A DNA stretch of 64,000 nucleotides from Rhizophagus irregularis (lineage: Eukaryota; Glomeromycota; Glomeromycetes; Glomerales; Glomeraceae): contig NC_089441.1 of NCBI RefSeq assembly GCF_026210795.1, forward strand, positions 1,240,001 to 1,304,000, written 5' to 3'. The notes below the pieces were generated by a model that saw only the letters and a list, made by a program, of their open reading frames with translations, was not told where the DNA came from and did not search any database. Positions 1,955 through 57,894 of the stretch are shown here, one piece after another (the stretch's first letter is position 1; each line of letters starts with the position of its first letter). A program made the translations under genes and the position numbers.

Positions 1955-4015
1955 TTATAATTCCAATGGCATAAATTTTCCTTCATTTCTTGTATTACGA
2001 ACTTTTCCTTCTATACTAAACTTTTCTTCCTTACTATTTTTTGCAAATATCTCTATCCCAAAAAATCCGTCTAAATTTAAATCTGGACCTTTTTGTATTA
2101 TACCTCCTAACTGAAGAAAAATTTCTTTATCTGTAAAATCAAAAAAATCATTATCTATAAAATTGTTTAAATTTTCATAAATTCCCATTTTTTCTATGAC
2201 ACTGTTTAACCATAACTTAGCATTTGTTCGTAAATCATTTTTATCTTTGTCAATAACCATATCGTTGATTATTATCTCCTCTTTGTTAGTGTTTGCAATT
2301 CTATGTACGCTCACATTTCTTTTATCAATATTTTCGAGCGTCATGTATGGTTTAATATATTTAATGTCTTCGTTATCTTTTTCCCATCTTCCTGGTATCG
2401 TCATAGCTATATCTTTTTCTATATAAATGTAACATTCAGAACTCCGATCTTTTTTCTTTCTGATATTATAATCACATCCTTTATAATTAATCAAAAATGG
2501 AGAATTGATTACATCGTTGTTCTCTTGTAATTTGTCATATTCTAACATATGTTTACCTATTTCGTCATAATAACGATAACGTGATTTCTTGGACCTTATG
2601 CTGCAAATATTATCATTTGAATTAATATCTCTCCATGTAATCACTTCTTTATTAGTTTCTTTTCTACTTTTTTCTGAAAGATTTTCATTACTTCTCGTTT
2701 TCTTGGTATCTTCTTTTCCCATTCTTTTGATTAACATTTCGTTATATAATTCTCTTTCTAATATACCATTTATCGTTATACGATCTCTTACAATTTTAAA
2801 CCATTTTGGTTCTATTCTCAACGCTAAGCCATTTTCTTTCAAAAAATGTGTCCATTTCATCATTTTGTCTGTATATGGTTCTATTAGTTGTTCTACGAAC
2901 ATAACACCACATTTTTTAATTCTATTTTTATAAAATTTAAATTCTTCATCTAAAACTTCTTCAATCAGAATGTGACCTCCTTTGATTCTGTGGTTTTGAA
3001 ACAAATCGTCATAATTCTCATGATCACATAAACGAAAATTCTTATAATCCAGTACTATTAATGCGTTCCCGACGAATCTTTTAGTTGTAAATTTGACTTG
3101 AGAAACTTTTTCTGCAAAACATAATGGTGTCCATATTTCTTGTTGCATCTGCTCCATTTGTATTTTAAATATTGATCTAACTATTTCATTACCGTTTGCC
3201 ATATACATTATATTTTTACTTAGACTTTCGAGCTGTAAACTAAATAGATCTTTAACTCCATATATATCTTTATCGTATATTATGCAATTAGGCAGAGTAC
3301 TTGGCATCTTACATTTATGTTTAATCAACGTATTTACTGGCGCCATTAATTGTTTAGCTTCGCTCTCTGTAATTACTACTCCCTGTAATTGGTATTCTAA
3401 CGCCGGTATCATATTAATATTCCACAGTTTACATACTTGTTTATCTGTTATTATTTTCCTATTCATTATTTTGACAAAGCCTTCTATCATATCTTTCATT
3501 TTTTTAATATGAACTGCTCTGTTATTATTGTACGTAAAGAAAATTCCTAAAAATCTGTTACCATTTTTTGAATTAATTTTTTCTATTTTTTGCCCCTCTA
3601 TTATCATCTCTCTTTTCTCCGCACTGTTTATTCTAATTATTTCATATTTTTTTGGATTTGCTTTTATATCATTTAATTTATAAAAACTATGACATATCTC
3701 TAACATATCCATCATTTGGTCATGTAATCTACTTATTAGTGTCGTGTCATCCATAAACGCAATCGCGTTAATTGAAATACTATGATTTGTCACCTCCTCT
3801 TTTGTTATGTTTTCTTTGAACTCCGACTTAATTTCATAGCCTACTTGTTTTCTCATGTCATCTAATTTACATAACAATGGGTCGTAAAAAATTCTCCATA
3901 GTATTGGAGACCACACCTCTCCCTGATCGATTCTGTCTTCAACTTTATATTTCTCGGTTAAATTATTATTAACTATTACTCTATTGAATTTATTGTGAGA
4001 TATGTCTAAAACCAA
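1955..4015 (-). pseudogene. LINE ORF2 reverse transcriptase, C-terminal part, and RNase H start
   Basis: In register with the preceding segment. DQGEVWSPILWRIFYDPLL is motif B (usual form QGxxxSP). NAIAFMDDTTLISR is motif C, with FMDD in place of the usual YADD or FADD but both Asp present. Thumb sequence follows to about residue 300, then about 300 residues of poorly conserved connection. Near the end, LNLDGFFGIEIFAKN looks like the first catalytic strand of an RNase H domain. The frame ends at 1955, and the RNase H reading continues in another frame (residues ITALMVIPDNTIVDLRTDDK), so a frameshift lies at about 1960. Confidence 0.8.
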
Positions 4016-4024
4016 ATTTATCCA

Positions 4025-4813
4025 TTATTCTGGTAACTTTATGCGCTCCATTCCTTTCTTCAAACTCTTTGAGCTTACGGAATCATATGCTTTACTTATG
4101 TCCATTAGCACTATCCACGCTTCTTTTTTGTTAATATTAGCATTCTCGATTATTGCTTGTAAAATTTTAATTGGCTCAAATGTACTTTCATATTTTAATG
4201 CCACAAAATTTTTTCCTCTTAAAATATTATATTTTGTTATGATATCGTTCAAACGATTTGTAAGTATTTTAATCACGATTTTTCTTGCTGTTTCGATTAA
4301 CATTATTGGACGCGTTAATTTTAAATCTCTATTCCACTCCATTGTTTTTTTGATTGGATATATTATTCCATCTTTCCATTCCTTTGGCCATGTTCCTTCT
4401 TTTATTACGAGGTTTATTATTTCTATTAATGCTTTCTTCGTGTAATATCCGCTTTTCTTCCAGAAATCGTAAGGAATACCGCTTGCACCAGCTGCTTTGT
4501 CATATTTGACGTTTTTTAATGTTAAATCACATTCTATAAGTGTCACCTCATCACATAAATGATCATATATATGTTCATCAACAGTTTCTAGTTTGTTGTA
4601 ATACGGTTCCCAGTTTTTACCAAACTCTTCTTCATCAAATTTTCTTGTGCACGTCCAATTTTTATAATGTTCTACTACTTCGTCCTTTATTTCTTCATGA
4701 TTTGTAATTATTCTAACCCTGTCTTCACTTGTTTTCTGGCAACTATCTATTTTGATTTGTCCTCTTCTTTTATCCATGATTCTAATAATCATTTCTTTTA
4801 AATCTGTTGTCAT
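4025..4813 (-). pseudogene. LINE ORF2 reverse transcriptase, N-terminal motifs
   Basis: Reverse transcriptase motifs 1 to A. KAAGASGIPYDFWKKSG matches the finger block of LINE polymerases, RPIMLIETARKIVIKILTNRL matches motif 2, and VLMDISKAYDSV is motif A, with the catalytic Asp in MDISKAYD. The frame stops at LPE followed by TAA near 4022. The next frame, starting at 4015, is in the same register, so a single nonsense change separates the two polymerase halves. It would copy element RNA at the nicked target. Confidence 0.85.
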
Positions 4814-32305: not shown

Positions 32306-33208
32306 ATGGGAACTACAAATGTAACTGATCTATTCAGTGATGATAATGTACAAGCCAGCATGATGGAATTTGGCAAAGGAATGCAAAAAGTCATGGTAAA
32401 TTTTCAAAATTGTACCGAAAGAATTAAAATTGGAAGATCTAGTGCTATATCCGACCATATTAGAGAAACTAGAAGACTTCGTGATACGTTTCGTCAATTT
32501 GTTGAAGATTCATTGGAATTCAACGAACGTTTATCAAATTATTCGCTTGATATTTTATTTTTTATAAAATGTTTTAAAGATTTTGATAATTATTCTGATG
32601 AAGTTGTTTTAGGATTAATGCACGACCTTTTAGAAAAGTCTCGAGAAAATCATGAATTGTCTAAAGAATTAAAAAAAAAAATAAAAACTGATGACGAATC
32701 TGGAATTAATGACCGGTTGATCAAAATACAAAATTCTTTACCAGGTCGTATTGAAACGATTAATGATGAAATTAATAGAAAGAAAATATCAGCATTAATT
32801 CCGAAAGGTAATGGATTAGCTAGCGCAGTTACTAGATATGTTATTTCTCTTTTCATTGATGTAAAATATCTGTATCGTAAGCTGGATGAAATAGTTTCGA
32901 TAAAAGACTTTGATAATAGTTTAACGTCAATTATTATGGAAATTAGCAAGATCGAAACTTTTTGGGGCATGCAAACCGAAAGAATCAAATACCTTATCGA
33001 TAATCTCGAATCTGGTAGAGACATTAATCGTCAACGAGCTGTTCACAATATCGAACAAAAGTGGAAAAATGTAGAAAAAGAATGCCAAATTTATAATAGA
33101 GCGATGAACGACGTATTGACCAGGGATAGACTTATCTGCATTGAGGTAAAATCAATTTCTTATTACACTCATTCAAGCAATAAACTAATTCTTGAATAAA
33201 TTTAGTAA
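32306..33208 (+). CDS. Unassigned helical protein family, member 1 (281-codon spliced frame)
   Basis: I do not recognise the family. Related to the minus-strand genes at 34921, 37838 and 39921. Shared blocks: an N-terminal MMEFGKGMQKVMVNFQNC-like start; RRLRDTFRQFVEDSLEFN; LIKIQNSLPGRI; a hydrophobic segment near residue 175; IETFWGMQTERIKYLIDNL; and WKNVEKECQIYNRAMNDVL at the end. It is mostly helical with heptad-like spacing and has no signal peptide. Unspliced, the frame runs to 33199, but GAG at 33143-33145 is followed by GTAAAATC, and a TTTAG acceptor at 33205 places TAA immediately after it. The frame thus ends in an intron-stop arrangement shared with two paralogues. It lacks about 40 residues found before the hydrophobic segment in the others. 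Confidence 0.75.
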
Positions 33209-33901
33209 AGAATCACGACACGTAATTTCTGCGTCAATTAAATTATGACGTATCAAAATGAAGAAGTAATAGATCTTTTTTTGATATATCAAGAGATTAT
33301 ACGAGTTATACATTTATATATATGATTATTTTTTGGGCCGTGTATATTGTCATTATTGTGTTCTAATCTGCAATAAAGAAAGCTTTAGTATTATTGATTA
33401 ACCTCTTTAGCTAATTTATAATTCTCTTAAGTTCAATAAATCTCGTAACAAAAAATTTAATCAATTATAATGTAATTTTTAATTTTGTCATTTTCGGTAA
33501 AATTCTTAAATTTTCCATGATCATTTGCGTTTGCGTATCATTATTACTAAATTCAAATATAAATTTCGTCGGCAATATTAATAATTATTTTGATTTAAAA
33601 ATTATTTGGGAATAATTATAAAACATACATTCTATTTTACTATCTAACGCAAAATGTTAGTAAGAGAAGCGTAAATTACGTATATTTTATCACGTATTTA
33701 ATATCACTTTATTTATACTTTATTGATAAATAAATATTTTACAAAAAAAAAAATACATAAATTTTTAAATTTTAAAAACAATTTCTCGAACATCCCAAAA
33801 TAATTTATGACCCCATAACTATAGTTAATTTGTAGTTAAAACACGAATCATCATGCTTTATTGCACTATGCATGTTTAATATCAAGAAAATAATTTGTGC
33901 C

Positions 33902-34921
33902 TCAATCAAGATAGTCGTTGTACAATACATTATTCATCACTTTATTATAACTTTGGCATTTTCTTTCTATATCTTCCCAATTTTTCTTAAGAATGTGAAC
34001 AGTTAAACTTTGTTGAATGTTTTGATCTTTTTGACTTTCGAAATTTTTGAGATTTGTAATAATATTTTTAATACTTTCGATTTGCTCGCCCCAAAAAGTT
34101 TTGATATCACTAATTCCCAAAATAATTGTTCTTAAATTATCGTTAAAGAGATTTATCATTTTCAATTCATTCTTCTTACCACTCAATTGATTTTTAATTA
34201 CTTTTTTTTCTTCGTCTAACCATTTTTCTGCATCCTTCTTAGCTTCTTCAAATACTTTCATTTTAGTAAGTCGAGCTAAATTTGATACCACAAAAAAATA
34301 AATAATATAACGTGTATCACCTTCATATGATATTAATGCTTTCTCATTTGAAGCAATCTCGTTTTCAAAATCTTCAATATATCCTGGCAAAGAATTTTGG
34401 ATTTTAATTAATTCGTTCATGATTCCGCCGCATTTTTTATCATCCGATTCTCCGTAACCAAATATACTATTTACTAATTTTTTAAAAAATTTCATAATTC
34501 CATCTTCTTCATCAAAACCAACTCCTCCATCAACAAATAATCTTTTTTCTAATTCTTTAGCTAATATATAATTATCATTTGATTCTTTTAAAAGGTCATT
34601 CAATAATACTAAAATTCCTTCATTAGAACAATTTCCATTAAGACATTTTTTAATAGATGAAACTTTAACCGCATAATTTTTTAAACGATTATTAAAATCC
34701 AATGAATCTTTAACAAATTTACGAAACATATCATGAAGTTTTTTAACCTCTTTAATATGTTTATTCATAATATTGGAATGTTTGCCGATTTCTTTGGTCC
34801 AATATTTAAAATTTTTCATGATTATTTTCATTGTTTTTCCATCTATCATACAAGTAAACTGTGTATTTCCTGTAACATTATTACTAGATTCAGGTTGGGT
34901 TTCGTTGTCGATATTAGTCAT
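33902..34921 (-). CDS. Unassigned helical protein family, member 2 (339 aa)
   Basis: Paralogue of the genes at 32.3, 37.8 and 39.9 kb. The start MTNIDNETQPESSN matches that of the 37.8-kb copy. Conserved blocks run in order: KKLHDMFRKFVKDSLDFN; LIKIQNSLPGYIEDFENEI; a hydrophobic stretch YIIYFFVVSNLARL near residue 205; KMINLFNDNLRTIILGI; IKTFWGEQIESIKNIITNL; and WEDIERKCQSYNKVMNNVL. Long helices with one central hydrophobic segment recall all-helical membrane-inserting proteins, but no homology can be shown from sequence reading, so I leave the function open. Unlike its paralogues it has no intron at the stop codon; the stop is encoded directly. Confidence 0.78.
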   Translation of the reverse strand: MTNIDNETQPESSNNVTGNTQFTCMIDGKTMKIIMKNFKYWTKEIGKHSNIMNKHIKEVKKLHDMFRKFVKDSLDFNNRLKNYAVKVSSIKKCLNGNCSNEGILVLLNDLLKESNDNYILAKELEKRLFVDGGVGFDEEDGIMKFFKKLVNSIFGYGESDDKKCGGIMNELIKIQNSLPGYIEDFENEIASNEKALISYEGDTRYIIYFFVVSNLARLTKMKVFEEAKKDAEKWLDEEKKVIKNQLSGKKNELKMINLFNDNLRTIILGISDIKTFWGEQIESIKNIITNLKNFESQKDQNIQQSLTVHILKKNWEDIERKCQSYNKVMNNVLYNDYLD

Positions 34922-35030
34922 TTTATCTTTTTTTTTTTTTTTTTTTTGTGAAATTTTAAGAGAAAACTTTGTCAGTGAAAATACAACAGTTTAGTTGTCA
35001 TGTAATATGTAATATGAAATCATTTTTAAA
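34922..35030 (-). promoter_or_regulatory. Conserved leader/promoter block of the helical family
   Basis: Upstream of three minus-strand paralogues the same features recur in order (coding orientation): AAAATGATTTCATATTACA (at 35027-35008, 37960-37941 and 40013-39996 in plus coordinates), about 40-60 bases, then a TTTTCTCTTAAAATTTCAC-like word, then a pyrimidine/purine-rich run and the ATG. The plus-strand paralogue at 32306 keeps only the inner word (ACTTTCTCTGAATTTACGAA). The shared block suggests duplicated promoters and common control. No factor can be named. Confidence 0.55.
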
Positions 35031-36751
35031 TTAGTGTCGTGACACCGTTATTTTAAGAACAAAAAAACAAAAACCAAATGATAAAAGTGCGTCAAATTTG
35101 TTTAAACTCGCACGTCCGAAATGTGTGACAGGTTACGCCGATAATACGTACGGCGCAACTGTCAATCACCTGCCTGACTGTACCACCATGGACAAACTGG
35201 CTTGATTGTGTGATCTGCCCAATGAACGACGATACAACTTTGAATGTGCTTTAAATTTAACGAGCCGCATTCTTATTTTTATCATAAAAATTAGATTTGG
35301 CAAATGGTATCTTATCTCACAGATCGTGCACATAAAAATCAGTATTTTTAACTTTAGTTTATATTTCTTTTTGATTTAAAATATTATTATTTCCTATTTA
35401 TTTACTTCATCTTACGTAGCGTAGATTCGAAATTTTATAATTTCATAAACTAATGGAAATTTCATCATCTAATTTTGTAAAACTAGGAAAACGGTAATCG
35501 TTAAAGTCCGTCGCGTTTATTTACTCTGGATCTTTTTTTTTTTATTACAACATTAAACAAAAAAAAATTGATTACGAAAAATAGCAAATTAACAGTGTTA
35601 CAATTTACAAAAAAAAAGGAATATGACTGAAAGGATTTTTTAAAACATATAGAAAATCATTGTTTAAATTTGAATGTTAAAAAATTTCTTCAACGTAAGA
35701 ATGCTATTGTGGAAAAACTTTGCATAATAATTTAAAATTAAATAATCTTAAAAAATTAGTTAAATCAAATTATTTATTTAGTTATGTTTATATGAAATCA
35801 ATTTAATAAATTAATAAAGTGAACGATAATATGTAATTACTATTTGTTGCTAACTTAGCCAAGTCTTTAAAAAACTTTTTGTCACCTGATCACCACGTTG
35901 AGTTGCACCAACATTGATCAGGAGAAAGCGAAAGGGAAAGGCTAATGGAAGGAAGGAATATTACATGGGTTAACTATCAAATCATTTAGCGCATAATAGA
36001 ATGTCCTTCGCTACGCTCGACAAAAGAAAATTGCATATTTTTTATACGAATTCCCTTTATTATTAAACAAGTCCTAGTTTGTTCGAAGCGTAGCTGAGGA
36101 TATCTTCGGTTAGACACATTGTAATGCAAGGTATGTCTGTCCGCATGCGTGATTAACCAATAAGATGTATACTTGATCGTTATCACGTGATCAGATTTTT
36201 GGTGACGCGTAATTTTAAACGAGTGCTTTGGACATTACAACGGATCCCGTTACCTAGTTATAACAGATAAAGAAGGTTTAGTATTGAATATTTAATACAG
36301 TATATCCTAAGTCTTTTATTTTAAAGTAATCGATTAATGTTACAATGTTTAATTTGGTCATTTTCAAATTTTTATTTTCATCAAATAGTTTGCGTATCAT
36401 TATTGTTTCTAAATTAATTATTTGATTAAAAGTTACCATAAATCATATATTTACGTAATTAATCCTATTTATATTTTATTGGTAAATAAATATTATATAA
36501 AAAAAAATTACATATTCTATGTAGAAACAATTTCTCGAATAACCCAAATAATTTTTACGATCCTTTAATTTAAATTCTCAAAGCTACTACTGAATAATTA
36601 AATCAAGAACTACGTTAAAATAATAAAGCAAAAGAAAACAGAAATATTATAAAATAATTCCTAATATTTAGTCTCTATATTTCGCTTGTATAATTTTCGT
36701 TGAATAATCAATCTTAACAGTTAAGAATTCTTATAATCTTTCTTCTGTGCA
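35031..36751. other. Intergenic; contains GAAGCGTAGC repeat words
   Basis: No gene. Bases 35990-36190 contain CCTTCGCTACGCTCGACAAAAG and GTTCGAAGCGTAGCTGAGGA in opposite orientations, followed by TGTCTGTCCGCATGCGTGATTAACCAAT. A related segment, GTCCGGAGCGTAGCGGAGGAC then GTCCGTCTGTCTGCCACGTG, lies at 51184-51255. The pair looks like a dispersed repeat, with an inverted arrangement in this copy. Confidence 0.5.
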
Positions 36752-37838
36752 TTATTGCTGTAATCAATTTATGTTAAAATATAAATCATTAGATTCATTG
36801 AATTTGATTAGATCATCTTAAACGATAAGAAAATAATTCATACCTCAATGTATTCGTCGTGCAATAAATCATTCATCGCTTCATTGTAAATTTGACATTC
36901 TCTTTCCACATTTTTCCATCTTTGTTCAAGAACGCGAACAATTCGACGTCGTTGAATATGTTGACCTTTTCCGAATCGTTCAAGGTTTTCAATAAGATAT
37001 TCGATAATTTCGATTTGTGCATTCCAAAAAGTCCTGATCTTACCAACTCCTATAATAATTGTTTTCAAATTATCATCAAAGAGATTTATCATATTCAATT
37101 CATTTTGATTATTTTTCAATTGATTTCTAATTTCCTCCCTTTCTTCTTCTAACCAATTTTCCGCTATATTGATCACAGCTTCTTCATAAGATTTTTCATT
37201 AGTAACCAAATCTATCAAACTAGCTACTTTTAATAAAATACCAATACATAAACTATAAAACACACCGCCTTCATATGATATTAATACTTTTTCTTCTGAA
37301 TTAATCTTAGTTTTAAAATCTAGAATATGTCCTTGTAAAGAACTTTTGATTTTTTTTAATTCGTTCATGATTCCTTCATTTCTTTTATCAAAAAATATTT
37401 ATCAATCAAATTTTTTAATTCTTTCATAAATCCACCATCTTCTTCATCAACAAATAATCTTCTTTCTAGTCCTTTAGCTAATCCATGATTCTTTTTAGAT
37501 TCTTTTAAAAGATCTTTCAATAATACTAAAATATCTTCATCAGAACAATTATTATCATTAAAACATTCTGTAAAAAATAAAATATCAAGGGAATAATTTT
37601 TTAAACGTTTATTAAAATCTAATGAATCCTTAATAAATTCACGAAAAATTTCATAAAGTTTTTTAACCCCTTCAACTTGTTTAGTCAAAATGTTAGAATT
37701 TTTAATTTTGGTGCAATTCTTAAACTTTTTCATGATGCTTTTCATTTTCTTATCATCTAAAATACACATAACTTTTGTATTTTCTAGTATATTATTTTTA
37801 CTAGATTCAGGTTGAATTTCGTTATTGATATTAGTCAT
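36752..37838 (-). pseudogene. Unassigned helical protein family, member 3 (frameshifted)
   Basis: The first frame runs from the ATG at 37838 (matching the paralogue start MTNI) to a stop at 37365. The second frame, read from 37368, continues the family pattern (IKSSLQGHILDFKTKI; NMINLFDDNLKTIIIGV; IRTFWNAQIEIIEYLIENL; WKNVERECQIYNEAMNDLL). The frames differ by one base near an A-run at 37390-37395 on the plus strand, so the copy is disabled, unless the run length is an assembly error. A longer upstream ATG at 37919 belongs to the leader, not the family. The end is spliced: GAG at 36846-36844, then GTATGA, with acceptor TTACAG at 36758 and CAA-TAA following. Confidence 0.75.
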
Positions 37839-38890
37839 TTTACTTTTCTTTTTTTTTTCGTGAAATTTTAAGTGAAAACTTTTTGTCAGTAAAAGTATAA
37901 CTATAAATAATTTTAACAATTAGCTCGTCATGTAATGTCATGTAATATGAAATCATTTTCAACATTTTCAAATCAGTGTAACATAATCGTGACCGTTTTT
38001 TTTTTTAAGAGCGAAAAACAAAATGATCAACAATCACATGATCAAATATAATCATACGCCGATGGATTTTTTTGTCAATTACCCCACCGTTATAAAGTAA
38101 AAGAGTATAAAATCCATCGGTATATACGTTAGTTACGTTACGCACAATGAGATAAGCCTGTTATTCCATGGATATCTAATAAAAACTTCGTGTACACTGA
38201 TGCTCCCTTCGGAATATTTGGTTATTCATTGATACCCATGGAATAAAAAGTATGAATTTAACGTCACAAATCACATTTCACATCAGTATTTTTAATTTTC
38301 CGATTTATTGATAATTTATTCCTAGAAATTAAATGAGACTCTGATTAATGAAGAAAGTTCGGCATAATTTTGGCAGTTTTGCAATTATAATTCCATAAAA
38401 TAATGGAAATCTTGTTAATAGAATTATTCAATTATTTAAAGCGGTCACGATCAGATAAGGTATCCCCTCCCTATAAATGCTAAATATATATTTCTTGCAA
38501 AATAGAATCCAAATTCTGGAAGGTTTTAGATTTTATGAAACTTCTAAATAAACGATAACGTGTATAAAAATTATTTAATATTTTTTTTAATTTTTTAATA
38601 TACGTACATATTTTTAAATCAGAAATTACATTATTTCAAATTCTTAAATCCGTATTCAATTGTCAAAAATATAAAATACTTACAAATCGAATTATTCTTA
38701 ACGATAATTTTAAAATTTATTATAAAAAAAACTTTGAGATTAAACTGATTGCTAACGCCAATAAAATATGTAACCTAAATAATACTGAAAAACTAAAAGT
38801 AATTCTAAATATTCAATAATTAAATAATTCCCTCTGAATGACCTTCATATTTAATCACCAAGAATCTTATGATTTTTCTTCCATGAATTA

Positions 38891-39921
38891 TCACTATATA
38901 ATTTATCGTATAAAATATACATAAATCATCAGTCGTATTGTTTTGAATAAATTATAATGAAGAAAGTGGTTCTTACCTTAACGTATCTATTTTCGTGCAA
39001 TAATTTTTTCATCGCAAAATAATAAAGTTGGCATTCTTTTTCTACATTTTTCCATTTATGTTCAATATTGTAGACAATTTGACGTTGAGTAATTCGCTCT
39101 CTACTGGAGCTTTTCAATCTTTTGAGATTATCAATAAGATGTTCGATACTTCCGATTTGCGAGTCCCAAAAAGTTTCAATTCTGCCAATTCCCATAATAA
39201 TTGATCTTAAATTTTTACTAAAGAGCTTTACCATTTCCACTTCTTTTCGCTTATTATTCAATTGAATTCCAAATTCTTCAATTTTGTCATTTTTGTCTAA
39301 CCATTCTTCCGATTTCGCCACATATTCTTTGCAAGGTTTTTTTTCAGTAAATACATCTAAAAACTTAGCTAAATTTAATAGCACAATAACACAGTACCTG
39401 TAAAATGTACCACCTTCATATTTTACTATTTCTCTACCATCTGATTCAATCTCGTTTTCAAAATCGACGGTAAAATTATATGTAGAATCTTTAATTATAG
39501 ATAATTCGCTCATAATTCCAACATTTTCATCATCATTAACTAACCTATTTTTTAATTTCTTGGCTAATTCATAATTCTTTTTAGAATCTTTTAAATGACT
39601 TTTCAATAATTTCGAAATTTCTTCATTAGAATAATTAATATCTTTAAAACATTCTGTAAAAAAAAAAATTTTACGTGAATAATCTTCTAACTGTTTGTTC
39701 AAATCCAATGATTCTTTAACAAATTCACGAAAAACTCCTTGAAGTTTTTTAACTTCTTTAATATTTTCAGTTATAATATCGGAACGTTTAATTTCAATTT
39801 TAACACAATTTTTAAAATTTTCCATGATCATTTTTATTTCTTTACCGAAATCCATCATACTAATAACTTGTGTATCATCTTTACTACGATTAGGTTGAAT
39901 TCTGTCGTCGTTATTAGACAT
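38891..39921 (-). CDS. Unassigned helical protein family, member 4 (315 aa, intron at stop codon)
   Basis: The start MSNNDDRIQPNRSKDD aligns with the paralogue starts. Conserved blocks: MMDFGKEIKMIMENFKNC; KKLQGVFREFVKESLDLN; LKDSKKNYELAKKL; a hydrophobic segment FYRYCVIVLLNLAKFLDVF near residue 175; MVKLFSKNLRSIIMGI; IETFWDSQIGSIEHLIDNL; WKNVEKECQLYYFAMKKLL. The unspliced frame runs on to 38929, but the coding sequence to 38977 is exactly 315 codons. It is followed by GTAAGAACC, and an acceptor TATATAG ends at 38894 directly before TGA. The stop codon therefore lies alone in the last exon. Function unknown. Confidence 0.78.
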
Positions 39922-44056: not shown

Positions 44057-47000
44057 CTAATCTGCTGCTAAATTTCTTAATTCTTTTTTTTCTTGTTCTA
44101 ATTCTAATTTCAATTCATTCAAATTCTTTCTTAATGAATTTATATCTTCAGCCATCATATTAGAATTTAATTGAATTCTAGTTCCTTCCTGAGAATTAGT
44201 AGCAAATTTAAAAATTTTGTATTTATCAAGATTAAAAGAATACAACTTAAGAATATTTTCAATCATAAGACTAACTTCCAACTCTTTATTTTCTTGAACA
44301 ATATTCTCTAACGAATAATAATTTTTGTTCAACTCTAATAATCCATCATTATATTTTACAAGAATATATTGAAATTCTTTAGTGTATTTGTCAGCCAAGT
44401 TAGAGGTTTTCAAATCTCTGGTAGAGCCAATAGTATTTCCTTCTTTATTAATAAAGCTTTCTAGACAATTTTGCAATTTTTTAATTGCTTCTTCTCGTAA
44501 AGTTAGAAAGCCACCCTTGGCTTTCAGAAATTTATTAACTTGATTAAGAACCTTTTTTTTCCTATTAGCATCATAAGAAGCTGAAGTTCTTGATAATTCT
44601 TGTTGGAGCTCATCTAACTCTTTTTGTTTAGCTTCTTTTTCTTTAGGAATTTCCTTAGTATCTCCTCCACTTAATTTATTTACTAATTCTCCTTTAACTT
44701 CACTCAATTCTTTTTCCTTGTCTATTAGCTTTTTAATACGCTCTTGATCAAGATTAATTAATCTTTGTTCTAATTCATTTATTTTATCTTCTTTAATCTG
44801 TAAAGCTTGAGTTAATTGCATTTTGATTTGTTCTTCATTTATCAATTTATGTTCCAATTGAGAAATTTCATTTTCCAACTTGGCTTTCAATTTAGTAACT
44901 TGTGAGAGATCTCTCACCACATTTTGCAATCTATTGCTTTCTTGTTCTATTTGTTCATAATTATCTTGGAACTGATTTAGTCTATTTGCTAATTGCTCTT
45001 TTTGTTCAATTAAGTTTTCTTTGTGAGATTTTAGTTCTTGAATTTCAACTTCTGTTTGAGTTAATCTTCCTTGCAAATCAACTTTTTCTTGCTCTAACTG
45101 GATGATTTGAATTTGAACTTGCTTCTTAGTCAGTTTATTTTGTTTCAGTTGTTCGGCTAAATTGCCAGCTAAACTTTGCTTTTCATTTTGCAGGTTAATA
45201 ATTTGGGTTTGCAAAATATCTTCTTTTTCTGCAAATTCTTTAATTTGTACAGCTAAGTTAAACCTCAGATTTTGATTATTTTGCTCAAATTTAAAATTTC
45301 TTTGTTGTGAATCAACTAACTCATTTTCTAACTTAAGATTTTCTTCTTCTATTTTCTTATAGTTACTCTGAGATTTGTCTTGCTGCAATTTTAACTCTCT
45401 AATATTAGCTTCTATTTGAGATAATTGATTTTGCAGATTAATTTTTTCATGATTTAACTTGCTGATTTGTTTAGTCTGTTCAGTTAAATTATCAGTTAAG
45501 GCTTGATTTTCTTGCTTAAATTGGGAATTCCTTTGTTGTAATTTAGCTAATTCCATTTGAATAGAACTTTGATAATTAGTTTCAGCAATCACTTCTAATT
45601 TAGGAAGTTCCTGCTCAGCATCATCATCTTTTTGTTTCAACTCAAGAAATTTCAATCCTTGAAATCCTTCTAGACTTTCATTTAATTCTTCACTAGTAAA
45701 ATCAAGTAAATGACTCGTATAACATACTTGTGGATGAGATTCTACAATTTGATTATTATGCTTAATTGGTGCATTTGTAAATTCCATAATATTGCTTTTT
45801 AACTCTTCATTAATAACTACAGAACGGGTAATCCATTTTTTAATAATATTTAAAATATATGATGCAGATGGTCTTTTTGATGGATCCTCATCCCAACATT
45901 TTTTCATCAAATCTACATAACATTGTGGAGTATTTTCAATAATTTCAGGTCGTTCACCTTTACAAATACTTAAAGCAAGTTGAAAATCGTGTGCTTTATC
46001 ATTAAATGGTAAAATTCCAGATGTAAATTCCCACATAATTATAGAAAAACTAAATATATCACTAGCTTGAGAATAAGGTTTGCCTCTTAAAACTTCAGGT
46101 GCCATAAATGGTATAATACCATAAATATAATCTTTTTTTAAAAAAGATTTTGCAAGTTGATATGATCCTAAATAATCACTAATATAAATTTCATATTTAG
46201 ATCCATTATATTCACATAAAATATTACCATCATGAAAGTTATAATGAATAAGACCATTTTTATGAATAGTATTAAGACCCATAACAATTTTATGCAACGT
46301 ATATAATTTTTGTTGCCAATTATTCGCTATTTCTATCAGGCACCCTCTTAAGTTACCTCTATTTGCATATTGCATTATTAACATATAATTTGAAGTATCT
46401 GGATCTTTTGTAAATCCATAGACTCGAATAATTCCATTTGAATTAATAATTTTCCACTATATAAAATAACATTAAGCAATTTAGTATAAATAAATTAAAA
46501 TTAAAATTAAAACAATAATAATAATAATTAATCATACTTCATTTAAAAATTCATTTAAACTTTCATCTGAATTATTAAGATAATCAAAATATTTAAGAAT
46601 TACTTTATATTTTTTATATGTAGCTTTATATATAGTACCAAACCCTCCTTTGTCAAGATATTCAACCTCCTCAAATTTATTATAAGGAACCCATTTTAAT
46701 TTATTTTCAGAAATAAATTGATCCATAATTTTACTTTCACTAGTCCCGAATCTTTAAAATATAAATATAAAATTATATTAAATTTAAAACAGATTTAAAA
46801 TTCCAAATTTAATATTGATGAAGGATATTAATAACACTTACTCTAGATAAATTACCGATTTAAAACAATAAATAAATAAATTAATACTTTATTTTTATAT
46901 AGATAATATATAATAACTTATACTTACCATCTAGAATATTTGAATAATTTTTCGAATAGAAAAATATTACATGTAATATTATATAAACAAAATAGAACCA

Positions 47001-50000
47001 AATAGTAACTTATAACTTACCATCGAAAATACCTGAATAATTTTTTAAAGGAAGAATTTATTTAGTTTAAATTATATGGATATATTTTATATATAAATAG
47101 AATTAAATAAATAACTTACTTTCTATATTATTAAATAAATGATTTTAAATAAAGAATTTAGTTTAAATTATATGTATATAAATATAATAGAATTAAATAA
47201 ATAACTTACTTGCTATATTATTAAATAAAAGATTTTAAATAAAAAATTTAATTTAAATTATATGTATATAAATATAATAGAATTAAATAAATAACTTACT
47301 TGCTATATTATTAAATAAAAGATTTTAAATAAAGAATTTAGTTTAAATTATATGTATATAAAATTAAATAAATAACTTACTTTCTATATTATTAAAATAA
47401 ATAGATATTAAATAAAGAATTTAGTTTAAATTATTTGTAAATATTTTATATATATAGTAGAATTAAATATCTTACTTCCTATATTATTAAATAAATAATT
47501 TTTCAAATGAAGAATTTAGTTAGTTTAAATTATGTGAATATAATAGAATTAAATAAATAATAACTTACTGCCTATATTGTTAATTAAATAATTTTTTAAA
47601 TAAAAGATTTAGTTAGTTTAAATTATGTGTAAATATTTTATAATAATAGAATTAAATAAATAACTTACTAACTATATTGTAAAGTAAAAAATTTTAAAAT
47701 AAAGAATTTAGTTAATTTAAATTACAATGTAAAGCCATTCTAACTTGATTGTTTAAAGATCTAATTTTTGATAAATATTTGTTTGAATGCCCCCTCTAAA
47801 TTTAAATTGTGATTGCTAAAATTTCCTGAAATTTTCCAAATTTTATTATGTTTATTTCATTAAGTTTAATAATGAAACCTCCCTGGACATTAAACAAACA
47901 ATCAAGTTGGAACAGTAATAAAGTTAAATAAATAACTTACTAACTATATTATTAAATAAATAATTTTTTAATAAAGAATTTAGTTAGTTTAAGTTATATG
48001 TAAATATTATTTAAATATAATAGAATTAATAAATGACTTAATGACTTACGATCTAAAATATTTGAATAATTTTTAAATAAAGAATTTAATTAGTTTAAAA
48101 TATTACATTAATTTAATAGAATTAAATAATTAACCTACTTTCTATATTATTAAATAAATAATTTTTAAATATAGAATTTAGTTAGTTTATATGTAATTAA
48201 TGCAAATGTTATTATAAATAACATAACAGATAATAGAATTAAATAAATAATTTATAACTTACGGACTAATATATTTGAATAGTTTTTTAAATAAAGAATT
48301 TAGTTGGCTTAAATTATTATATAAATATAATAGAACTACTAAATAAGTAACTTATAACTTACAAACTAAGAGATTTTCAAATAAAAAGAATTTTGTTAGT
48401 TAAATTATATACAAACATCCAGAAATTATCTAAGATGTAAGAATTCGTAGTCCTGTGATAGGGGTGTAATCCTATGTAAGTTTACATAAGTTCACGTACA
48501 TTTTCATAAGAAATTTACAAAAACTTACACAAGATTACATATATTTACACAAATTTAAGTAAATTCACACCCCCATCACATGGTTACGTCTAAAAAAATA
48601 TAAATATAAATAACTTACAATCTATAATTTATTAGAAAAAGAATTTAGTTAGTTTAAATTATATGTAAATATTATATAAATATAATAAATAATAACTCAC
48701 TCGCTATATTGTTAATTTAATAAAAATATTAATTTTAAATCATATGTAAATAATTTTATAAATATGATACATAGAATTAAGTAATAACTTACCAACTACA
48801 TTAATAAATAAAGAATTTGTTAAATAAAGAATTTAGTTAATTAAATTACACAAATGTAGTAGAATTAAATAAATAACTTATAACTTACGGACTAATAAAT
48901 TTGAATAATTATTAAATAGTTTAAATTATGTATGAAAATTATATAAATAAATATAATAGAATTAATTAAATAATAACTTATAACTTACCTTCTAAAATAT
49001 TTGAATAATTGTTTAAATAAAGAATTCAGTTAGTTTAAATTATATATAAAAATATGTAAATATAATAGAGTTAAATAAATAACTTATAACTTACCATCTA
49101 AAATATTTGAAATTCAGTTAGTTTAAATATTAAATAAATATAATAGAAATAAATAAATAACTTACCTTCTAAAATATTTTGAAATAAAAAAAATTTAAAT
49201 TATATGTAAATAATTTTTATAAATATAATACATAGAATTAAATAATAACTTACGATCTAAATAATTTTTAAAAAAGGATTCAGTTAGTTTAAATTAAATA
49301 TAAAATTATATAAATATAATAGAATTAAATAAATAACTTATAACTTACGATCTAAAATATCTGAATAATATTTTAAATTCAGTTAGTTTAAATTATATGT
49401 AAATATTAAATAAGTTTAATAGAATTAAATAAATAAAATTAAATAATAACTTACGAGCTACATTATTAAATAAATAATTTTTTAAATAAATAATTCATTT
49501 TAGTTGGTTAAATTATATGTAAATATTGCATAAATATAATAGAATTAAATAAAAACTTACATTCTATATTATAAAATAAATGATTTTTAAAAAAAAAGTT
49601 AGTTTAAAATATACGTAAATAATAGAATTAAAATAAATAACTTACCCCCTGTTATTAAATAAATAATTTTTTAAAAATAAAGAATTCAGTTAGTTTAAAC
49701 AATACATAATATTATATAAATATATAATTAAATAATTGACTTACGAACTATATTAAATAAAGAATTTTTTAAATAAAGAATTTAGTTAAGTTTGTATATA
49801 AAAGTCAAGAAACACAAATAATATATAACTTACACCCTGTATTGTGATTGATTAATAATAATTTAAAAAGAGTAATCATAACCAATTAGACAATTAGATA
49901 ATTTGATATAGAAATTAAATATATACAGTGACTTACAATCTTGATTATTTAAATAAATAAGATTATTAGTTTGAATTATATGTAAATATTTGTAAGCTAA

Positions 50001-50481
50001 TATTATAAAATTAAATACTTACTTGCTATAACATCATTGATTATTAAACAATTATATTTAATGAACAATTTAGTTATTTGAAATACCATGTAGAATACAA
50101 TAAAAAACAAATAACTATTAACTTACCAACTATGATAACATTAATAATAAAATAAATTATTTGGTCAGATTAAATATAATAGGAGTAAGTAATTCTTCTA
50201 TTGTCAAACTACAAGGTAACCTGTAACTTACGAGCTAAAATAGTTAAATAATTTTTAATAATGCAGTTAGTTTAAAATATTAAAATTATATGTTTGTAAT
50301 TTACAAGTTTTAATATTATCATTTGAATTTTAAATTGTGCCTACCTTTATTTTCTTCAATTCCTGAATCTAGTTTTATTATATTGTAAATTTTGTTATAA
50401 AAAAAGATTTTAAATTTCAATTTGTGTTTAATAACTATGTACATGCTATGCGCTTTTACCTTTATTGTTGCTTTGAGCCAT
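44057..50481 (-). CDS. Kinase-fold protein with coiled-coil tail, 37 predicted exons, 918 aa
   Basis: Predicted join: 50481-50460, 50368-50345, thirty-two 3-nt exons and one 1-nt exon (50234-46842), 46751-46538, 46456-44057; total 2757 bases, an integral 919 codons. Residues 1-15 read MAQSNNKDSGIEENK and 16-48 come from the micro-exons. A TKL-like kinase domain spans about 70-340: KGGFGTIYK loop, Lys in VILKYF (about residue 101), and IHYNFHDGN (190-197) in the catalytic loop. The usual HRD there is HYN, and the metal site reads SDYLG, so catalysis is doubtful and this may be a pseudokinase. APEVLRG, SDIFSFSIIMWE and DPSKRPSA are typical. Residues about 415-770 are Gln/Glu/Leu-rich coiled coil. 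Kinase-fold genes of this kind are abundant in Glomeromycotina. A TTTTTTAG 18 bases before the ATG suggests a 5' UTR intron. Confidence 0.75.
46842..46842 (-). other. Predicted single-nucleotide exon
   Basis: The minus strand reads TATCTAG, A, GTAAGTG: an acceptor, one base and a consensus donor. The thirty-two preceding 3-nt exons keep phase 1; this base changes it to phase 2, which is exactly what the next exon (46751, starting with the third base of a codon) needs to enter the kinase domain in frame. Without it the frame hits a stop within about 20 codons. A one-base exon is known in a plant gene (Arabidopsis APC11), so the spliceosome can handle one. Confidence 0.6.
47738..47912. mobile_element. 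Small inverted-repeat element inside one array intron
   Basis: The termini TTCTAACTTGATTGTTT (47738-47754) and complement TTCCAACTTGATTGTTT (47912-47896) match in 16 of 17 positions. The enclosed 175 bp are unlike the surrounding intron repeats and account for one of the two long introns of the array (about 270 instead of 95 bases). Non-coding. Confidence 0.7.
48454..48580. mobile_element. Small inverted-repeat element inside another array intron
   Basis: The termini TGTGATAGGGGTGTAA and complement TGTGATGGGGGTGTGA enclose 127 bp with GTTTACATAAG/CTTACACAAG-type repeats. It explains the second long intron (about 255 bases). A partial TAG-AC-GTAACC splice-like word directly beside it (48583-48592) may be a repeat unit damaged by the insertion. 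Confidence 0.65.
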
Positions 50482-55496: not shown

Positions 55497-57894
55497 TAGG
55501 GTTGGTAAAATAACCGTTAGTTATGAATTTGGTTAATTAACCGGTTAATTAACGGTTAGTTAACGGTTAATTAACCCATAAATAACCTGTATATATAATT
55601 TTAAGGAAGTTAAAATAAATTTATAATTTATTAAATATTATAAAATTTTAATATATTTTATTTATTCTTCATCATCTAAATTAATAACATTTGCTTCAAA
55701 TCCAAATATACTATCATTATCAGAACTATTATTATTATCATCTTCTTTATTTTCATTATCAGAACTATTATTACTATCTTCTTCATTTTCATTAAAATTA
55801 CTAATCTGTTTCTTTTTTTGTATTTTTACAAGTCTATTACACATTCGAAGATTTCCATAAATATAAACTAATTTTTTAACACGTTCATTTTTCAATCTAT
55901 TTCGAATTTTATTATGAATAAAACCAAAAGTAGAAAAATTTCTTTCTGCAGCTGCAGAAGATGTAGGAATTGAGAGAATTTTAATAGCCAGTTGTTGAAG
56001 TTTACTAGTTGGCCATGATTGCCACCATAAAGATGAATTAAGAATATTAGCAGATTTCCAAATAATTTCATTATCATAAGGTGAATTTTTATTACGAAAA
56101 TTTACCAATTCAGCAAATAATTCTACTGCTTCTTCCTGATTAAATCTTTTATTTACAAATGTTGTAAATTCTACATAACCAATAGATTCAACTTCATCAT
56201 TTTTACTTTTTTCCAAAAATTGTGGATCTAACATATAAGCTGTTATCATAATAGGATGATAAGTATATTCCCATTGCTTTGCAATAAGTTCTTGAAGTTT
56301 ATCAGAAAAATTACAATCTATTTGATTAATTTGATTCATTACTTCTTTGAAATATGAATAAACATTTGAAAGAATTGAAATATCTGATTCAAATAACTTT
56401 AATGCTGAAACCATTGGTTCCATAATTTTTGTTATTATATCTAAATCTTCCCAAAACTCATCTGATAAAATATGAGCTCTTAAAGTTAAATCCATATTTT
56501 GACGAATTCTTATATCCATTAAAGCCTGTTCAAGTGCTGTTCTTGAATTTTGAAGTGATTGAAAACAAGCAAGATGTGTTCCCCATCTTGTAAGTGCTGG
56601 TAAAACCAATGCAATTTCTTTAGAATAATTTTCTTTTTGAATACGTTTCAATTTAGCTGTTGCCTGTACATGTGCCTTAAAATAATTGACCAACTTTTTT
56701 GCATTTTCAACAACAGATTTAATTTGATCAATCTTTAAAATATCACTAATTAAAAGATTCATTACATGAGAATTACATCCTAAACAAACAATACTTGGAT
56801 AACTATCTTCAATAATTCGCCAAGCTGCTTTCATTACACTAGCTGTATCTGTAATAACTGCTGAAAATTTATTAATACCAACAATTTCCATTTGTTTAAT
56901 AATTTCATCTGCAACCCATTTAGCTGTATGAGATTCTTCACCAGAATAAATAGCATCAAAGAATAATGGTTTTGGAGTACAAATAACAAAATTTTGAACT
57001 GATTCTCGATTAATATTAGACCAACCATCTGAAACCATTGTAAGAGATTTAGCTTGTAAAATTTGTTCATTACATTCAGCTTTAACTTCATCAAAAACAT
57101 CATCAAGTAATTCATCAGCAAGTTTTCTTCGATTAGGTAATTTGAATGCTGGACGTAATTGTTGAAAAAACTGAATAACATAATTATTTTCAAGAAAAGA
57201 AAAAGGAACTCCAGCAGCAAATAATGCTTGAGCTAGTAAAATTTCAAGAGTATCTTGTTCTTCTTCACTCATACGATCAACAAAATTCTCAATTGTTGTA
57301 TTTTTTAAATGCTTTTTTGATGTTTTTACTGTAGGAATAAAAGTAGAAGTAGTAGCATCAGAAGTTTCTAATAGTTCAGGAATTTGTTGTTTCTTTGTTT
57401 TTGCACTTTCTGGAGCTCTAGGACAACTATCATTAAGATGAACTTGCATTCTTTTAGCTGTACCTTGTTCAAAAACTTTAGAACAATAATTACAACGTAC
57501 AGAAGGATGTGTTTTTTTCTTAGACCTACTACTTTCTTCATTACTTTCTGCTTCAGTAATTATTGTCCAATGTTTCCAAACAGTTCCCTTTTTTTTTACC
57601 ATGATAATGAACAATAAATTTGCAAAAAAAAAGTGTTTTTTTAAAAAAAATTTATCTTAAAAAAAAGATCATGCAATATGTAGATCATAGATTTAATCAA
57701 TATTTATATTAATTAATATTTAATTGTGTAACAAAATAATGGATTATCATTTAATCACATGATTTAAATTCTGCATTTTGATTGGCTAATTATAAATAAC
57801 GGTTAATTAACCATTTTAAATCAATCATAACTAACAAAATTAACGGTTAATTAACCATGGTTAATTAACCGTGGTTAATTAACCCCCATCCCTA
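55497..57894. mobile_element. Autonomous hAT transposon, 2398 bp, intact
   Basis: Ends TAGGGTTGGTAAAATAACC and (complement) TAGGGATGGGGGTTAATTAACC, flanked on both sides by the octamer ATCGTGAG (55489-55496 and 57895-57902). Units 1, 2 and 4 of the surrounding tandem array preserve the empty site ATATCGTGAGTGA, which confirms the duplication. Subterminal regions carry many GGTTAATTAACC / CGTTAATTAACGG repeats in both orientations, the usual transposase-binding arrangement of hAT elements. It contains one uninterrupted transposase frame on the minus strand, so it may be mobile or only recently inactive. Confidence 0.93.
55662..57602 (-). CDS. hAT-family transposase (BED finger, 646 aa)
   Basis: Start chosen at MVKKKGTVWKHW; an ATG 12 bases upstream is also possible. 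Residues about 8-60 form a BED zinc finger: VWKHW, CNYC, then H and C in VHLNDSC. The catalytic core carries LTMVSDGWSN (first Asp), FSAVITDTASVMKAAW (second Asp), and the VCLGCNSHVMNLLISD block. The C-terminal dimerisation region reads SLWWQSWPTSKLQQLAIKIL and then SSAAAERNFSTFGFIHNKIRNRL, with the catalytic Glu in AAERNFS. The last 60 residues are Asn/Asp/Glu-rich. Length and all three acidic residues are intact. It cuts and reinserts elements with matching ends and makes 8-bp target duplications. Confidence 0.93.
   Translation of the reverse strand: MVKKKGTVWKHWTIITEAESNEESSRSKKKTHPSVRCNYCSKVFEQGTAKRMQVHLNDSCPRAPESAKTKKQQIPELLETSDATTSTFIPTVKTSKKHLKNTTIENFVDRMSEEEQDTLEILLAQALFAAGVPFSFLENNYVIQFFQQLRPAFKLPNRRKLADELLDDVFDEVKAECNEQILQAKSLTMVSDGWSNINRESVQNFVICTPKPLFFDAIYSGEESHTAKWVADEIIKQMEIVGINKFSAVITDTASVMKAAWRIIEDSYPSIVCLGCNSHVMNLLISDILKIDQIKSVVENAKKLVNYFKAHVQATAKLKRIQKENYSKEIALVLPALTRWGTHLACFQSLQNSRTALEQALMDIRIRQNMDLTLRAHILSDEFWEDLDIITKIMEPMVSALKLFESDISILSNVYSYFKEVMNQINQIDCNFSDKLQELIAKQWEYTYHPIMITAYMLDPQFLEKSKNDEVESIGYVEFTTFVNKRFNQEEAVELFAELVNFRNKNSPYDNEIIWKSANILNSSLWWQSWPTSKLQQLAIKILSIPTSSAAAERNFSTFGFIHNKIRNRLKNERVKKLVYIYGNLRMCNRLVKIQKKKQISNFNENEEDSNNSSDNENKEDDNNNSSDNDSIFGFEANVINLDDEE

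Follow-up and report, generated by a model that had tools for sequence, protein, structure and literature searches.

Tandem arrays of predicted three-nucleotide exons in a kinase gene family of Rhizophagus irregularis

Introners are near-identical introns present in many copies within one genome. Exons of a few nucleotides are known from several other settings. The micro-exon genes of Schistosoma carry exons of 3-81 nt, 10-20 of them per gene, separated by introns of up to 5 kb, and their products are secreted (PMC10526429). Single 3-nt micro-exons occur as well, for example in Drosophila homothorax (PMC7392893), and 1-nt exons have been described in Arabidopsis APC11 (PMC4674806) and Fusarium CYP621A (PMC12940212). 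In recursive splicing an intron is removed stepwise and nothing is left behind (PMC8605326).

A kinase gene with an unusual first part lies on the minus strand, from 50481 to 44057, of a 64,000-nt stretch of Rhizophagus irregularis DNA; "the window" denotes this whole stretch. As in the Schistosoma genes, serial tiny exons (from 3 nt) would lie in one gene, the gene belongs to a multigene family, and the products would be variable. As in homothorax, the exon would be of 3 nt and handled by the ordinary spliceosome, and as in APC11 and CYP621A a conserved 1-nt exon, here a terminal "A", would fix the frame. Stepwise removal through closely spaced acceptor and donor sites recalls the ratchet points of recursive splicing, and the many near-identical introns per genome recall introners. 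The explanation that fits best, and that is held to be very probable, is that of a family of at least 95 kinases whose N-terminal segment would come from an array of 3-nt exons, spliced in order and in phase 1. This is read from genomic sequence, with no transcript or protein data.

Exon layout and splice signals of the window gene

All features of the gene are on the minus strand. Exon 1 (50460-50481, 22 nt) has the start codon and encodes MAQSNNK plus one base, ending in phase 1. Exon 2 (50345-50368, 24 nt) is directly followed by a GTAGG donor. The array that comes next (46928-50234) consists of 32 units, triplets each with a homologous intron of about 95 nt after it. The triplets read, in order, CTC TTG CAA ATT GGT TTC GGG AAT CTC ATC ATC in the first part, AAG ATG AAG TCC TTG CGA ATT TTT TCC AAA ATC in the middle part and TTA TTA GCA GAA AAA CAA CAA AAA (ATG) ATG in the last. 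A 1-nt exon (A) at 46842, flanked by TCTAG and GTAAGT, then takes phase 1 to phase 2, matching exon 3 (46538-46751, 214 nt), in which the kinase domain starts (FGTSESKIMDQFISENKLKW...GGFGTIYKA). Exon 4 (44057-46456, 2400 nt) contains the remaining kinase domain, a long coiled-coil-like tail and the stop. On its own it passes the Pfam kinase-domain cut-off (PK_Tyr_Ser-Thr / TKL-like), matching PF07714 PK_Tyr_Ser-Thr with E=3e-28 and 99 bits (cut-off 23) and PF00069 Pkinase with 5e-27 and 95 bits (cut-off 32). The joined frame with 32 triplets is 2757 nt including the stop, or 918 amino acids; with 31 triplets it is 2754 nt.

A splice-flanked triplet array upstream of a kinase had been noticed in a sequence-only reading of the window. 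Its presence on the minus strand was confirmed and its coordinates were right, as were the flanking exons of 22, 24, 1, 214 and 2400 nt and the joined frame of 2757 nt with 32 triplets. The count of 32 AG-NNN-GTAAG repeats stood for all units except one. Strict AG-NNN-GT[AG][AG]G sites number 31, on the minus strand from 50234 to 46930, and the 32nd unit, at 47023, reads TTTTCG-ATG-GTAAG and has lost its acceptor AG. With CG in that place, this unit (unit 31 in order, 47021-47032) is probably a 12-nt in-frame exon, GTATTTTCGATG, starting from the next upstream CAG; use of this AG keeps the frame. The expected make-up of the window array is then 31 three-nucleotide exons plus a single exon of 12 nt. 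Another array (L038) holds a 12-nt exon candidate similar to unit 31.

Neighbouring sites of the window array lie 71-124 nt from each other in all but three places: one gap is of 192 nt, and two, of 256 and 272 nt, contain inserted DNA. In the enlarged intron between exons ATT and TTT (48366-48618) the inserted element contains a 28-nt inverted repeat (48465-48539); in the one between exons TTA and TTA (47672-47940) the insertion has inverted ends of 17 nt, located at 47738-47754 and 47896-47912. The exon triplets are untouched by both insertions. Over the whole window an AG-to-donor spacing of 3 occurs at 34 sites on the minus strand, against 2-8 sites at other spacings, and at 6 sites on the plus strand; outside the array the 3-nt spacing is at background level.

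The exon length is held across the family. In 33 array segments acceptor and donor are 3 nt apart in 365 cases and, at the terminal exon, 1 nt apart in 32; all other distances from 0 to 15 total about 14. Lengths other than 3 inside arrays, as found by a scoring matrix, are 6 (three cases) and 12 (two cases), with single weak candidates at 23 and 28 nt. The introns range from about 73 to 114 nt, typically about 94, with no preference for frame-keeping lengths. The donor is GTAAGT in 822 of 980 units and the acceptors are TAG, CAG or AAG. A branch-like CTRAY motif is present in 672 of 870 introns, compared with 219 after shuffling, and is missing from about a quarter of them. With GT donor, AG acceptor and branch site on the flanking introns, the triplets have the flanking signals asked of spliceosomal micro-exons. 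Donors weaker at +5 (GTAAAT, GTAATT) mostly follow G-ending triplets (33 of 45), as if the exon-side G compensated for lost U1 pairing.

Elsewhere in the window, fragments of a LINE-like reverse transcriptase (RVT_1) lie in two frames at 1955-4813, and a hAT-type transposase (zf-BED, DUF659, hAT dimerisation) lies at 55662-57614. Several related proteins of about 300-340 amino acids are encoded on both strands at 32306-39921; the two that were searched (32306-33199 and 38929-39921) had no Pfam match.

Reading frame and junction codons

The array starts in phase 1 because the length of exon 1 is 1 mod 3 and that of exon 2 is a multiple of 3. Among the genes checked, exon 1 measures 22 nt, or 19 nt in one paralog, and the lengths seen for exon 2 are 24, 45 and 75 nt. 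In most paralogs the 1-nt exon "A" lies about 80-96 nt after the last triplet, and exon 3 is open in phase 2, the phase set by this exon. Many paralogs have GTG or ATA where exon 3 of the window gene has an internal ATG; since this ATG is not conserved, the start of translation is placed upstream of exon 3. The sequence-only reading had called the triplets one-codon exons. This phase-0 reading, in which each triplet is a codon, was rejected, as exon 1 and exon 3 both require phase 1: each exon completes one codon with two letters and begins the following codon with one. The triplets TAA, TAG and TGA are absent, but TAT and TAC are absent too, and the pattern is therefore a lack of TA at positions 1-2 rather than stop avoidance. 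In all arrays TA is absent from the first two triplet bases, and TG, GT and GC nearly so, for which the coding frame offers no explanation.

A test that does not depend on the arguments of the sequence-only reading uses the codons at the junctions. In phase 1, which is fixed by exon 1 and by the kinase, a junction codon is formed from the last base of one triplet and the first two of the next. The sample of 37 arrays, of which 22 were covered for the greater part or in full, yielded 980 triplets and 870 neighbour pairs. In genomic order a phase-1 stop was found at 1 of the 870 junctions. Shuffling the triplets within arrays gave 32-33 stops (minimum 16 in 2000 shuffles), reading the neighbours in reversed order in phase 1 gave 45, and the frame shifted by one base gave 147. 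No stop avoidance was seen in the frame that starts from the second base of the triplet. The dinucleotides AA, AG or GA follow a T-ending triplet in 1 of 219 cases and other triplets in 173 of 651 (Fisher P = 1e-23); the reversed-neighbour control of this comparison gave P = 0.55. Unit pairs are not independent, through shared ancestry and duplicated blocks of units. When each triplet pair was counted once over the whole set, there was 1 stop against 30 in the reversed reading. Of the 19 arrays in which at least 0.5 stops would be expected, 18 are free of them, and the sole remaining phase-1 stop is in L056.

Stop avoidance is thus limited to directly adjacent triplets, taken in genomic order and read in the predicted frame. 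Letters about 94 bases apart are unlinked at the DNA level; it is joining in RNA, followed by translation, that links them. From this order-, frame- and neighbour-specific avoidance it follows that the triplets would be included in genomic order, in phase 1 and with all members. The proposal that these are real 3-nt exons joined in frame into the kinase is therefore strongly supported, though RNA and protein data are lacking.

The rival that survives best accepts the array as real and has its triplets skipped in many combinations, giving many N-terminal variants per gene, as the sequence-only reading had suggested. Any skip keeps the frame, every exon being 3 nt, and stops arise at only about 3.5% of the junctions that skip one triplet. 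That figure, 27 stops of 776 (d=2), is however no lower than the 29 expected. At d=3 there were 29 stops against 26, and for d=2 to d=8 stops occur at the shuffled rate, whereas avoidance would be expected if the skipped products mattered. The donors are also nearly all at the U1 consensus, as for constitutive use. Variation by skipping thus finds no support here and is unlikely.

Family members and change within arrays

The arrangement is not that of a single gene, as had been supposed. A search pattern spanning two successive units matches the genome at 2071 places, and its reverse matches nowhere; the first 100 or so matches listed form ten clusters, and all ten have a kinase directly downstream on their own strand. 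A second pattern, for the 3' end of an array (TTG exon, intron, 1-nt exon), matches at 95 places, and again the reversed form has no match. A kinase exon lies 60-387 bp downstream in 85 of these 95. For 8 further array ends a kinase match was found by search, raising the count to 93 of 95, and direct reading of L078 raised it to 94 of 95. The last, L079, has no kinase exon within 1.2 kb downstream; a DNA-transposon-like insertion may explain the absence. The arrays L080 and L081 have no kinase within the downstream stretch examined, and by eye L080 is free of phase-1 stops. Exon 3 has at least 150 matches in the genome, nearly all of them open. The family has at least 95 members, more likely 150 or more; these searches were confined to one genome, for which 2,533 kinases have been counted (PMC10234402). 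The arrays hold from 12 to 78 three-nucleotide exons, and a genome-wide total of 4,900 or 9,300, depending on the pattern used, is an extrapolation only.

Homologues of exon 1, 22 nt long, lie upstream of other arrays and encode MGQSNGK, MGQCISK, MAHSNDK, MAQSNDK, MALSNDK and MVLSNDK; with the 19-nt exon of one paralog included, all exon 1 lengths found are 1 mod 3. Exon 2 homologues in four paralogs are of 24, 24, 45 and 75 nt (counted by hand), so that the length is 0 mod 3 in 5 of 5 genes checked. The paralogs at C1:1864241 and C1:2288648 begin with MGQCISK or MGQSNGK, compared with MAQSNNK in the window gene. An MGQ start could lead to myristoylation in some paralogs, and membrane association with a variable arm is therefore one idea.

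Both ends of the array are kept across paralogs, with CTC TTG .. ATT GGT (encoding L-x-N/D-W) as the opening triplets and CTT or CCT followed by TTG as the closing ones, but the middle is not. Residues R, F, N, D, E, W and Y abound in the encoded middle, whereas C, A, S and T are scarce there. Relative to shuffling, tryptophan, glutamate and phenylalanine are commoner among the junction codons, and valine and glycine are rarer. Among the closest relatives, with 1-2 flank changes, the exon triplets differ in 19% of pairs against 0-6% for control intron triplets. The corresponding values are 23% against 3-10% at 3-5 flank changes and 40% against 10-20% at 6-9. At equal flank distance the exon triplets are thus 2-10 times more often different; many of the closest-copy pairs come from a single array (C15). 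Either diversifying pressure acts on the triplets or the introns are homogenised around them, and the two are not separable. Among close copies the second codon position changes least. This is unlike classical positive selection, and classical diversifying selection on the protein is not claimed.

Units of two or three cassette types take turns along the C15:4355500+ array (L067, L034). A GTATGT donor accompanies GGA, TTG has its own flank set (TTATAAG), and AAC, ATT, ATA, ATC and CAT share a further flank set; whole units and small blocks have therefore been duplicated. The same array has units whose flanks are identical over 111 nt yet enclose triplets differing at two of three bases.

These patterns bear on a second rival, in which mobile introners were inserted into a continuous coding stretch, so that the triplets are old and the introns young. 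In its favour, the introns resemble one another far more closely than do the triplets between them, the result expected if copies had been inserted. Yet insertion exactly every 3 nt and in a single phase is hard to explain, and triplet and flanks travel together in cassettes (GGA/GTATGT, TTG/TTATAAG), which fits tandem duplication of whole units. Introners would also be dispersed over unrelated loci. Instead the intron-core places listed, at least 100, cluster in arrays, nearly all of them upstream of kinases, and among the places listed the clusters checked are on the same strand as the nearby kinases. Introner insertion is accordingly left with little to recommend it.

It is more improbable still that the arrays are pseudogene remnants with exon signals inherited from a former functional state. 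The L079 end and the arrays L080 and L081, with no kinase in the downstream stretch examined, would suit such decay, but stops are absent in nearly every tested array despite the quick change of triplets, and the exon 3 matches are almost all open.

Least tenable of all is a non-coding minisatellite within one long first intron, excised whole or recursively with nothing left: such tandem repeats are common in AT-rich introns, and Drosophila offers a precedent for recursive splicing in which exons appear to be of zero nt (PMC8605326), but this account predicts neither stop avoidance across introns in one frame and order nor an exon length confined to 3, 6 or 12 nt amid introns of drifting length, and it joins exon 2 to exon 3, which, with the array and the 1-nt exon omitted, runs into a dead end after 33 amino acids. 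The sequence-only reading had argued against such a minisatellite and had named excision of the whole array as one intron as the outcome that would refute its proposal; the frame and order test bears out the former, and the truncated frame disfavours the latter.

Proposed mechanism and comparison with known systems

For the preferred explanation, in-order splicing of 3-nt exons ahead of a kinase, the repeat unit would consist of a free triplet and a spliceosomal intron of about 94 nt, homologous between units, that has a near-perfect GTAAGT donor, usually a CTRAY motif, and a TAG acceptor. The triplets would be joined in genomic order and in phase 1, and the 1-nt exon would then set the frame of the kinase. 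With only 3 nt between them, the two splice sites of such an exon could not be occupied simultaneously, and for this reason the introns are inferred to be removed one after another, each step adding 3 nt. Intron definition is inferred because the introns are short and uniform and the donors near consensus, and inclusion of the array is inferred to be constitutive. Unequal exchange or conversion between the near-identical introns may lengthen and shorten the arrays; whole residues would be added or removed with the frame unbroken while the triplets diverge fast. Neither the one-by-one order of intron removal nor the mechanism of exchange has been shown; both are inferences. The product would be a kinase with an N-terminal arm of about 12 to 80 extra residues, conserved at its ends and hypervariable in its middle, whose binding partner and function are not known.

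A more far-reaching suggestion, possible but tentative, is that the arrays are a device for remaking a hypervariable recognition segment, rich in aromatic and charged residues, residue by residue in more than 100 kinases, with triplet changes favoured or targeted. The introns would provide the pairing for unequal exchange, by which residues are added, removed and swapped in frame. The segment would serve possibly in partner discrimination or in self/non-self signalling between hyphae.

If confirmed in RNA, the arrays would be, to our knowledge, the densest known interruption of coding sequence, with up to about 80 introns for about 80 residues. They would challenge the limits placed on exon size and on the serial, faithful splicing of tiny exons, and would offer a natural test case for sequential intron definition. 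They also suggest a new route to protein diversity, in which introns act as recombination spacers between single residues. Because 3-nt exons are hard for standard annotation to place, current gene sets may lack, or give incorrectly, the N-termini of a sizeable number of R. irregularis kinases.

A literature search, from which many subscription journals were excluded, found no report of tandem 3-nt exon arrays in any organism and nothing on 3-nt exons in Rhizophagus. Novelty in fungi, as first proposed, holds for the arrays and not for tiny exons as such, since a 1-nt exon is known in Fusarium CYP621A (PMC12940212).

Each known system differs from these genes in a definable way. First, unlike the exons of the Schistosoma genes, those of the Rhizophagus arrays are uniformly 3 nt, stand 12-78 in tandem and are separated by homologous introns of about 94 nt. 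In a micro-exon gene the tiny symmetric exons make up much of the coding region; in the window gene they provide only about 100 of 2757 nt. Nor is the product evidently secreted, being a kinase without an evident signal peptide; exon 1 (MAQSNNK, MGQSNGK and similar) has no hydrophobic leader, as judged by eye. Second, 3-nt micro-exons of the homothorax type are isolated and alternatively spliced, whereas the Rhizophagus exons are arrayed. Third, the 1-nt exon of APC11 or CYP621A is single and stands alone, whereas the "A" exon closes an array of 3-nt exons and recurs throughout the family. Fourth, a ratchet point has its acceptor abutting its donor and leaves nothing in the mRNA, whereas here three bases, constrained as coding, lie between the two sites and each step would leave 3 nt. 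Fifth, unlike introners, the Rhizophagus introns are confined to the arrays of one gene family and duplicate together with their triplet. The gene architecture could be new while its chemistry, that of spliceosomal micro-exons, is known; on a stricter view it could be counted as an extreme variant of the micro-exon gene.
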